A stretch of 43,091 nt of DNA from an uncultured Prevotella sp. (lineage in GTDB: Bacteria; Bacteroidota; Bacteroidia; Bacteroidales; Bacteroidaceae). The stretch is taken from the NCBI GenBank assembly GCA_905236165.1, contig CAJOOC010000102.1, forward strand, positions 1-43,091, given 5' to 3'. Position 1 is the stretch's first letter. Each line of letters begins with the position of its first letter. Below are positions 427-29,011 of this stretch, one piece after another. The position numbers and the translations under genes were made by a program. The notes beneath the pieces were generated by a model. The model saw only the letters and a program-made list of their open reading frames with translations. It was not told the origin of the DNA and did no database searches.

Positions 427-453
427 CAGGGACGTGGGCGTCTCGCCCGCGAC
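427..453 (+). repeat. Dispersed hairpin repeat A (CAGGGACGTGGGCGTCTCGCCCGCGAC)
   Basis: 27/27 identical to the reverse complement of 28985-29011; internal GGGCG-TCT-CGCCC hairpin. Confidence 0.85.
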
Positions 454-497
454 AGAAAAAAAATGCACACCCATCAGCGTAATATGCCTAACGGCAT

Positions 498-522
498 CGC
501 GGGCGGGACGCCCACGTCCCTG
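498..522 (-). repeat. Dispersed hairpin repeat A, inverted copy
   Basis: 24/25 match to the reverse complement of 427-451. Confidence 0.85.
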
Positions 523-751: not shown

Positions 752-1138
752 ATGAAAAGAGTGAAGATTGTTGCGTTGCTTCTGGCCCTCACAGGCATTA
801 CCACCGCCTGCGGGCAAAAGGGCTATGAAGATGCTGAGGTGGAGGAGTTTGCAAGACTTATGGAGGACTCTACGGTTATGGTGCTTGATGTAAGGACGCT
901 GGAAGAATACGGCGCGGGACACCTTAAGCGCGCCATAAATATAGACGTGAAGCAGGAGGGATTTGCTTCTACGGCAGAATTCATGCTGCCGAAGGAATGT
1001 ACCATTGCAGTCTATTGCCGCAGCGGACGACGCTCGGCCCACGCGGCAGAACTCCTTGCAGAGAAGGGGTATAAGGCCGTCAACCTGAAAGGAGGAATCC
1101 TATCATGGGAGAAGGCCGGCAAGGCGGTTGAACGGTGA
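752..1138 (+). CDS. Rhodanese-like domain lipoprotein
   Basis: Lipoprotein-like signal (MKRVKIVALLLALTGITTAC); rhodanese active-site loop YCRSGRRS. Confidence 0.9.
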   Translation: MKRVKIVALLLALTGITTACGQKGYEDAEVEEFARLMEDSTVMVLDVRTLEEYGAGHLKRAINIDVKQEGFASTAEFMLPKECTIAVYCRSGRRSAHAAELLAEKGYKAVNLKGGILSWEKAGKAVER

Positions 1139-1148
1139 TGATGGTGAT

Positions 1149-1172
1149 GTCTGCGATGGTATCGCAGACTCT
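1149..1172. repeat. Palindromic repeat B (GTCTGCGATGGTATCGCAGACTCT)
   Basis: 9-bp perfect arms with 3-nt spacer; second copy at 2285-2308. Confidence 0.8.
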
Positions 1173-1204: not shown

Positions 1205-1277
1205 GTTGTCGTACGCGGATTCGAACCACGACAAACAGAACCAAAACCTGTTGTGCTACCATTACACCATACGACAA
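1205..1277 (-). tRNA. tRNA-Gln (anticodon TTG)
   Basis: Reverse strand folds as a cloverleaf: acceptor TTGTCGT/ACGACAA, anticodon loop TTTTGGT, T-arm GGTTCGAATCC. Confidence 0.93.
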
Positions 1278-1830: not shown

Positions 1831-2631
1831 CTATGCCGCCCCCTCTCCTTGGGAGAGGGTTGGGGTGAGGTTTGTCCTGATTATCGTCAGTCCGTCGCGC
1901 AGAGGCAGAAGAACTTTCGACACACGAGCATCGTTGGCTATGTAGTCGTTGAAGTTGCGTATGCCCTTTGTCTGCGGGTCGGACGAATAGCCGGGGTCGG
2001 TGACGTGTCCATCCCACAACGTATTGTCGGCCATGATGAATGCCCCCGGGCTCATCAGCGGCAGCAACGTCTCATAGGTCTCGATGTATGTGCGTTTGTC
2101 ACCATCGAGGAAAGCCATATCGAAGGTGATATTCTCCGTTTGTGCTATGCGCGGTGCCTCTGTTATTGCATCGCCAATGATGAATGTCACCAGGTCGGCC
2201 CACGGGGACCCTTCTATCCAACGACGTGTGAAGGGTTCCTGCTCATCGTTTATCTCGAAAGTCCAAAGATGGGGGGGATTGGGTGTCTGCGATGATATCG
2301 CAGACTCTCCGACGGGCTCATTGATGAAAGAAGATTGAGAGCCTGCATTCAGTAGTGAGGCCAAGCCTTCGGCCATGCACAAAGCGGAATAGCCTGAGAA
2401 GGTGCCTACCTCTATGATGTTACGCGGGCGTATCATCTGAACGAGCATCTTTAGCAGGCGTCCCTGCAGATGTCCGCTTGCCATGCGTCCATGCAACATC
2501 TCTATGTTTGTGGCCCTCCACAGCCGATGCAGATAGTCGGGCTCGGCGTCGCTATGTGAGAGAACATAGTCGTCGAGCAATGCCTCGCCGCTGAGCGTAG
2601 TATGGTTGGGATTCTGAGTATGGCTCTTCAT
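1831..2631 (-). CDS. SAM-dependent O-methyltransferase (class I, methyltransf_3-like) carrying repeat-derived segments; open frame extends to 2661
   Basis: IIEVGTFSGYSALCMAEGL, DMAFLDGDKRTYIETYE, IMADNTLWDGHV; 3' end is encoded by REP module C. Confidence 0.9.
   Translation of the reverse strand: MKSHTQNPNHTTLSGEALLDDYVLSHSDAEPDYLHRLWRATNIEMLHGRMASGHLQGRLLKMLVQMIRPRNIIEVGTFSGYSALCMAEGLASLLNAGSQSSFINEPVGESAISSQTPNPPHLWTFEINDEQEPFTRRWIEGSPWADLVTFIIGDAITEAPRIAQTENITFDMAFLDGDKRTYIETYETLLPLMSPGAFIMADNTLWDGHVTDPGYSSDPQTKGIRNFNDYIANDARVSKVLLPLRDGLTIIRTNLTPTLSQGEGAA
1841..1871 (+). repeat. REP-like module C (CCCTCTCCTTGGGAGAGGG + TTGGGGTGAGGT)
   Basis: 8-bp arm palindrome plus TTGGGGTGAGG tail; related copies at 28932-28963 and 38423-38450. 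Confidence 0.85.
2285..2308. repeat. Palindromic repeat B inside the O-methyltransferase CDS
   Basis: GTCTGCGATGATATCGCAGACTCT; 23/24 identical to 1149-1172. Confidence 0.85.
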
Positions 2632-2641
2632 GAAATATTCC

Positions 2642-4486
2642 TTATCTGTTTCTTGACCCATAGGCTATGCGCCGATGTTGGAAGTCGGAGGCACGTTTCT
2701 CTGAGCTTGCCGACAGTTTCCCCGTCAGATACTTCTCCATTATGAGTCCTCCGATAGGCACACCGTAGTCGGCTCCGAAACCGCCGTTCTCCACATAGAC
2801 AGCAACGGCTATCTTGGGGTCGTTCATCGGTGCAAAGCCCATGAATACGGAGTGGTCCTGTCCACGGTTCTGGGCCGTTCCGGTCTTGCCGCACACCTCA
2901 AACGGCATACTGCCGAGAGCCTTACATGTGCCACCAAGGACGGAGCTTCGCATACCTGCCACAACGAGGTCATAGGCCTTTGCCGAAGCCTTGGTGTAGC
3001 GTTTGTTTGTATAAAGGGTGTCAAGAGGCTCGCCTTGAACGCTCTTCACCACATGCGGCGTATAGAAATACCCACGGTTGGCGATGGTAGCTCCGAGGTT
3101 GGCTATCTGCAATGGTGTGAGGTTCACCTCACCCTGACCAATGGAGATGGAGATGATGGTGAGGCCGTTCCACGACCCTTTGTAGGCATTGTCGTAATAG
3201 GTGCCATTGGGTATGAGGCCTCGTTTCTCGCCTGGCAGGTCGATGCCCAGCCTATAGCCGAATCCCATGCTCACCATATAGTCGCGCCATGTGTTCATGG
3301 CATTAAGCGGCTTACCGTATTTCTTGCGGTTACCTATCATATAGTACAGTCCCCAGCAGAAGTATCCGTTGCACGATGTGGAGAGAGCCCCTACGAGTGC
3401 TATCGGCGAGGAGTGACCGTGACAACCCACATGCAATCCTTTGTAAGAGAAGCCATGATGGCACGGGAAGGCTGTGGTAGGGCTGAGAATTCCCTCGGTG
3501 ATGAATGTGAGTGCCTGTGATGTCTTGAAGGTAGAGCCCGGGGGATACTGTCCCATGATGCTTCGGTTCAGCAGCGGTTTCCACACATCCATCTCCAGCG
3601 CATGATGACTCTTGCCGCGCTTGCGGCCTGTCATGAGACGCGGGTCGTATGACGGCGATGACACCATGCAAAGCACCTCCCCCGTCTTAGGGTCTAAAGC
3701 CACGATACTGCCTATCTTACCTTCCATGAGACGCTCTCCAAGAGCCTGCAGCTCGATGTCGATGCCGAGGGTGAGGTTCTTGCCTGCCACGGGCTTACGG
3801 TCGAACTTACCGTTCTGATAGCGCCCCTGCACCCTGCCTCTGGCATCACGCAGCAACACCTGCATGCCTTTCTCGCCACGCAGCTGCTTCTCATAGGAGC
3901 GCTCCACGCCAAGCTTTCCTATATAGTCACCCCGCTGATAATACTCGTCGGCATCGATGTCACGCTGAGACACCTCAGCGATGTCGCCAAGCACATGGGC
4001 TGCATAGGGATACTGATACTGGCGAAGGGTGCGTCGCTGTATGGAGAATCCAGCGAAACGATAAAGCTTCTCACGGAAGATGGCAAAATCTTTCTCATCA
4101 AGCTGCGTAAGAAACACCTGTTGTACGAATCGCGAATAGCCCGGATTCTTGGATCTATCCTTGATATCGGCCATGCGTTTGATGAAGTATTCCTTGGTAA
4201 TGCCAAGGGTATTGCAGAAGGCCAGCGTGTCAAGATGTTCGCCCACCTCGTTCATCACTACCATAACATCATAGGAGGGCTGGTTATACACCAGCAGTTT
4301 CCCGTTACGATCGTAGATTACGCCACGGGCAGGATAATCTATTTTCTTCAGAAAGGCATTCGAGTCGGCACTCTTACGGTAGTCTTCGCTCATCACCTGA
4401 AGAGCGAAAAGGCGGAGGATGTAGACGATAACGATAATCAGTGCTGCTCCCGCTATGACGTATTTACGGTAAGAGAAGTCGGGCAC
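2642..4486 (-). CDS. mrdA: Penicillin-binding protein 2
   Basis: PARGVIYDRNGKLLVYNQP, PPGSTFKTSQA, VCGKTGTAQNRG; next to mreD. Confidence 0.96.
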   Translation of the reverse strand: MPDFSYRKYVIAGAALIIVIVYILRLFALQVMSEDYRKSADSNAFLKKIDYPARGVIYDRNGKLLVYNQPSYDVMVVMNEVGEHLDTLAFCNTLGITKEYFIKRMADIKDRSKNPGYSRFVQQVFLTQLDEKDFAIFREKLYRFAGFSIQRRTLRQYQYPYAAHVLGDIAEVSQRDIDADEYYQRGDYIGKLGVERSYEKQLRGEKGMQVLLRDARGRVQGRYQNGKFDRKPVAGKNLTLGIDIELQALGERLMEGKIGSIVALDPKTGEVLCMVSSPSYDPRLMTGRKRGKSHHALEMDVWKPLLNRSIMGQYPPGSTFKTSQALTFITEGILSPTTAFPCHHGFSYKGLHVGCHGHSSPIALVGALSTSCNGYFCWGLYYMIGNRKKYGKPLNAMNTWRDYMVSMGFGYRLGIDLPGEKRGLIPNGTYYDNAYKGSWNGLTIISISIGQGEVNLTPLQIANLGATIANRGYFYTPHVVKSVQGEPLDTLYTNKRYTKASAKAYDLVVAGMRSSVLGGTCKALGSMPFEVCGKTGTAQNRGQDHSVFMGFAPMNDPKIAVAVYVENGGFGADYGVPIGGLIMEKYLTGKLSASSEKRASDFQHRRIAYGSRNR

Positions 4487-28984: not shown

Positions 28985-29011
28985 GTCGCGGGCGAGACGC
29001 CCACGTCCCTG
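28985..29011 (-). repeat. Dispersed hairpin repeat A
   Basis: Exact 27-nt reverse complement of 427-453. Confidence 0.9.

Follow-up and report, generated by a model that had tools for sequence, protein, structure and literature searches.

The stretch of DNA analysed here, 43,091 nt from an uncultured Prevotella sp. (the window), carries one short palindrome twice, once between genes and once inside the reading frame of an O-methyltransferase. The best-known in-frame palindromic insertions are those of Rickettsia, a genus of obligate intracellular bacteria whose genomes are reduced. The original prediction held that a 24-nt palindrome at 1149-1172 recurs at 2285-2308 with one mismatch, and the two sequences, GTCTGCGATGGTATCGCAGACTCT and GTCTGCGATGATATCGCAGACTCT respectively, indeed differ at one base. 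The palindromes proper span 21 nt (1149-1169 and 2285-2305), and dinucleotide shuffles give 0.01 expected matches in the window. The intergenic hairpin (1149-1169, minus strand) lies between a rhodanese-like ORF (752-1138, plus strand) and a tRNA-Gln gene (1205-1276, minus strand), and has a degenerate tag side at 1170-1179, which reads TTATTGAAGA on the minus strand. The intragenic copy, also on the minus strand, consists of a hairpin at 2285-2305 with 9-bp arms (GTCTGCGAT/ATCGCAGAC) and a 3-nt loop, a tail at 2282-2284 (ACC on the minus strand), and a tag side at 2306-2315 that reads CCGTCGGAGA on the coding (minus) strand, where column conservation in 56 copies gives the consensus NYGTCNGAGA.

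The host gene (1831-2661, minus strand) encodes a protein of 276 aa with a Methyltransf_3 domain (Pfam PF01596, E 5e-40). Translation of this ORF reads YSALCMAEGL-ASLLNAGSQSSFINEPVGESAISSQTPNPP-HLWTFEINDE, which places the palindrome in frame within an odd stretch, as had been proposed, and alignment with 29 congeners defines that stretch as an insertion, with the extra residues between YSALCMAEGL and TFEINDE. The hairpin unit sits within the 30 codons of ASLLNAGSQSSFINEPVGESAISSQTPNPP (2272-2361, minus strand). From YSALC to INDE the DNA measures 150 nt in the window. Six relatives have 69, 87, 96, 102, 105 and 111 nt, so that the gene of the window is 13 to 27 codons longer here. The expected short join of a few residues between these motifs is seen in most relatives, and in some the loop is itself moderately extended; a loop of the same length lacking the palindrome was not found among them. 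The hairpin unit covers only ∼33-36 nt (∼11-12 residues) of the excess, and the remaining loop DNA has no clear origin; it contains GCAGGCTCTCAATC, which looks like an inverted arm and tag, a likeness on which we do not rely. The sequence match to solved relatives is interrupted at this point, that to 5lhm ending at query residue 100 and restarting at 135. From the alignment and the usual class I methyltransferase fold, the insertion would fall in the loop that links the first helix to the second strand and points away from the active site; a single-sequence AlphaFold2 model had a mean pLDDT of 37 and was set aside. A second repeat is seen at the end of the same gene (1843-1870), where it encodes the C-terminal tail TNLTPTLSQGEGAA, missing in congeners, and related sequences are present within other ORFs of the genome.

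The two copies in the window belong to a dispersed family. The window's own genome, a draft of 2.5 Mb in 171 contigs (83% complete, 4.5% contamination), contains 60 forward matches with at most 3 mismatches, compared to 2 for a reversed-pattern control, and removal of duplicates leaves 56 distinct copies with different flanks. Outside this genome the family is rare. Among 60 relatives, three have one stray match each, with 2 mismatches, and in a forward count over 399 genomes of the genus more than one match was found only in the window's own genome (48) and in two others, G384 (14) and G194 (9). A scan of the GTDB collection (85,488 species), which may omit the window's own genome, returned only nine stretches with the tagged pattern, from a small number of MAGs classed as Prevotellaceae, Bacteroidaceae or Prevotella, several of them from goat rumen or sheep abomasum. 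No match was found in viral contigs and no family for the element in Rfam, and a literature search, which lacked most subscription journals, found no description of a Prevotella family of such palindromes.

The genome-wide search for further in-frame copies showed that the methyltransferase is one case of many. Reading the contig stretches around the copies, we found ∼45% (27/60) in frame within genes, an approximate share because genes were called with a home-made codon score, which starts some of them upstream of the true start. As genes cover ∼90% of the sampled DNA, the palindrome is also depleted from coding sequence, yet far less than the other repeats of this genome, of which repeat A has 1/38 copies in genes, the AATTAAC repeat 0/60 and the TTAAGC repeat 0/41. 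Pfam domains were detected in 19 of 20 host ORFs scanned and are of many kinds, including TMP-TENI (ThiE-like), PrmC, SpoU methylase, phosphoglucomutase (PGM), ATP-grasp, MFS transporter and GT90, the glycoside hydrolase families GH43, GH67 (two copies in one ORF), GH2 (two) and GH95, alpha-amylase, a hybrid two-component regulator, an AAA protein and DUF proteins. Carrier genomes too have copies within long ORFs (for example L105, L099 and L155).

Alignments with orthologues make the inserts visible. The intervals in the MFS and PGM genes each differ by exactly 36 nt from both G384 and G194, and that in the GH43 gene by 33 nt from G014; the inserts in PrmC and SpoU methylase are less clear, as the loops there vary in length anyway. 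In all five genes compared (PGM, MFS, DUF5107, SpoU methylase and PrmC), the copy is absent from the G384 or G194 orthologue, so that these copies were gained or lost after those species parted, each species being represented by one genome. A further reading is that the palindrome is a chance sequence or an assembly artefact. Such an origin could be suspected from the draft state and contamination of the assembly; it is excluded by the shuffles, by recurrence of the family in independent MAGs from different species, and by hosts with conserved domains and different flanks, and we assign it a negligible probability.

Some of the loops seem to tolerate unrelated inserts, since the DUF5107 and SpoU methylase orthologues of G384 (L120 and L126) carry short repeats of other kinds (SPEGEG and PPLSQRGDGG...PPRPLERGLGG) in the loop where the window's genome has the palindrome. 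Within the window's genome, the GTGAAGAGTGAAG repeat is found in frame in genes in 5/21 copies (L165 6863; L178 2273; L185 7668 and 16484; L191 2803), encoding SSLFTLHSSL-like stretches, and simple repeats of the CGAAAACG type form long NENENGNGN or VIVPVPV tracts within ORFs (L186 7553-7640; L199 10532-10624; L171 10864-10944). Tolerant protein loops seem common to several unrelated repeats.

When the 56 copies are aligned on the palindrome, conservation beyond it is strong for one base on one side and for ∼ten bases on the other, which defines a unit of ∼33 nt. Written tag-first, the unit reads YGTC-NGAGA-[GTCTGCGAT-ANN-ATCGCAGAC]-A(C/T)C, with a hairpin of 9 bp and a 3-nt loop. The YGTC tag, seen on the complementary strand, has A in 53/56, C in 50/56 and R in 56/56 copies, with G (37) or A (15) as the last base. 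It is separated by the 5-nt spacer NGAGA from the stem, which begins G(T/C)C, and in the A(C/T)C tail the A is the only strongly conserved base. The arms pair perfectly in 40/56 copies. The second stem pair is C-G instead of T-A in seven of the 56, and G-T pairs occur in several, indicating that the hairpin itself is kept and not the sequence alone. The RNA fold of the unit has an energy of -13.7 kcal/mol against a shuffle mean of -6.6, yet the best shuffle is lower than the unit. Clean inserts measure 33 or 36 nt, and the unit is mostly without stop codons on either strand. In-gene copies are read in three frames, as ESAIxSQT, VCDxIAD or SLRYHRR, which indicates that no particular peptide is under selection.

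Tag-first orientation coincides preferentially with the coding strand. This is so for 22/27 copies lying deep within genes (p = 0.0015) and for 15/21 intergenic ones flanked by co-directional genes (p = 0.08). Most frames are open on both strands, so that stop codons by themselves account poorly for the bias. Such a preference, together with a stem that tolerates G-T pairs, would fit copies retained because they serve a function, whether as a hairpin within transcribed RNA or as an extra peptide in the host protein. A peptide function was rejected on the ground that three reading frames are used, which yield unrelated peptides. Inspection by eye of the table of copy contexts showed no fixed position of the intergenic copies relative to starts or stops, the compared copies are missing in sister carriers, and most congeners lack the family altogether. 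Retention for function is therefore improbable.

Partial copies are one-sided. Upstream of the tag, 16/55 copies have a further, incomplete unit made up of tag and left arm (11 or more matches), and downstream 0/55 do. The spacing of these partial copies is a multiple of three in 10/10 genic and 1/6 intergenic cases, and codon-multiple spacing in genes is what selection on the reading frame predicts. Three pairs of neighbouring copies lie within 600 nt of each other, all in the same orientation, with no inverted doublets, and in G384 (L095 1500-1615) the palindrome occurs three times head-to-tail with a 47-nt period that includes flanking sequence. It is possible that replication errors at hairpins, in which stalling, slippage or a template switch copies the tag and arm, account for most growth of the family, with dispersal rare or old and no dedicated enzyme. 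The one-sided partial copies, the tandem triplication of the 47-nt unit and the failure to find an enzyme would all fit. However, slippage accounts for tandem growth and not for 56 sites with unrelated flanks, and it leaves the precise differences of 33-36 nt at separate genes unexplained, which makes replication errors an unlikely, though not implausible, main route of growth.

One candidate for placing copies in trans is a REP-associated tyrosine transposase (RAYT), a type of enzyme whose substrates are single-strand hairpins bearing a 5′ motif (PMC6006769). The only RAYT found above the NCBIfam cut-off (88.5 vs. 80 bits; NF047646) is a protein of 208 aa encoded at L107 on contig C58. Its gene is flanked by repeat A, GGGACGTGGGCGTCTCGCCCGCGA, the genome's RAYT-associated REP, which is present in the window at 429-452 (plus strand), 497-520 (minus strand) and 28986-29009 (minus strand), and one of whose 38 copies in the sampled contigs lies inside a called gene. 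That this RAYT mobilises the palindrome in trans is judged decidedly unlikely. Repeat A has a different stem and is almost absent from genes, in published cases each RAYT is linked to a REP family of its own (PMC6006769), and the carriers G194 and G384 have only sub-threshold RAYT matches, though both drafts are incomplete. Thus, among the sequences searched, no cognate enzyme was linked to the palindrome.

On balance, the palindrome is probably a mobile hairpin element of the REP/RPE type, ∼33 nt long and non-autonomous, which forms its own family in a small Prevotella-related group and whose copies are placed in trans and filtered by selection. A trans-acting activity would place copies at many sites, with the hairpin most likely handled as single-stranded DNA. 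By eye, no consistent target-site duplications were seen around the copies. A lagging-strand route would predict a replication-strand bias, and the ratio of 30:33 obtained from GC skew shows none and counts against it, though a 20-kb skew in a draft assembly is a weak proxy. Selection would then purge insertions that disrupt reading frame or protein folding, and the survivors, 11-12 extra residues in variable protein loops, may be close to neutral as peptides. A unit near 33-36 nt that is mostly free of stops on both strands would allow many loop insertions to survive, and slippage or template switching probably adds the partial tandem copies. The coding-strand bias and the tag-side-only partial copies also form the basis of a rather unlikely variant, in which the family is adapted to coding sequence through its near codon-multiple length and few stops, with transcription guiding insertion or copying by an enzyme other than a known RAYT. 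If this were true, the palindrome would be a continuing supply of small in-frame loop insertions in proteins.

That a separate family operates in Prevotella-like gut bacteria on a scale similar to that in Rickettsia suggests a recurrent process, in which short hairpin repeats turn into a source of protein loop insertions time and again. How palindromic repeats spread without a known transposase becomes a testable question, with the coding-strand bias and the one-sided partial copies as signatures that every mechanism has to account for, and ruminant metagenomes resolved at strain level could capture such events directly. For annotation, inserts of this kind can mislead homology searches and structure models.

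The likeness to Rickettsia palindromic elements (RPEs) drawn in the original prediction is right in kind and extends to many genes. As in Rickettsia, the palindrome occurs in intergenic DNA as well as within genes, where it is in frame in proteins of unrelated kinds, and nearly half of the palindromic elements of R. conorii are inside ORFs (PMC10969869), a share close to 27/60. Compared with published descriptions, the Prevotella unit differs in its ∼33-nt length (the first RPEs reported were about 150 bp, PMC10969869; other described ones fall into CGTC-REP families), its stem, the 5-nt spacer after its tag, its 3-nt loop and the phylum of its host. The short elements RPE-4 and RPE-6 end in CGTC (PMC3733652), and the CGTC-REPs (CGTC-1 to CGTC-4, with TGTC and CCTC variants) have intragenic copies, are reported to lack a dedicated transposase and are found also in Bacteroidetes (PMC3733652). 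The palindrome resembles the latter in its unpaired YGTC tag at one end, 9-bp stem, short tail, intragenic copies and lack of a known transposase. In CGTC-REPs, however, the tag abuts a stem of 8-9 bp with AT in the first two positions, the loop is 4-5 nt, the tail is CCA and dimers are mostly head-to-head (PMC3733652, Table 1 for the tag), whereas the Prevotella unit has NGAGA between tag and stem, a stem starting G(T/C)C, a 3-nt loop, an A(C/T)C tail and head-to-tail neighbours. The GTAG/GTGG REPs associated with RAYTs (REPtrons and REPINs) share a small hairpin with a 5′ unpaired motif and in-frame loop insertions, the latter reported also inside genes of a tnpA-REP subclass known from Bacteroidetes (PMC6006769), while the Prevotella hairpin has the foot GAGA and the tag YGTC, forms no inverted doublets and does not flank the one RAYT above cut-off in the incomplete drafts searched. 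Since RPEs do likewise and intragenic REPs, also in loops, are known from several phyla (PMC3733652; PMC6006769), the kind of phenomenon is already known. The evidence supports a palindrome that works like RPE in-frame insertion, and does not imply an RPE by descent, as sequence, length, tag spacing and dimers differ from those described; we call it a separate, new REP/RPE-like family, so far found only in a few Prevotellaceae/Bacteroidaceae genomes.
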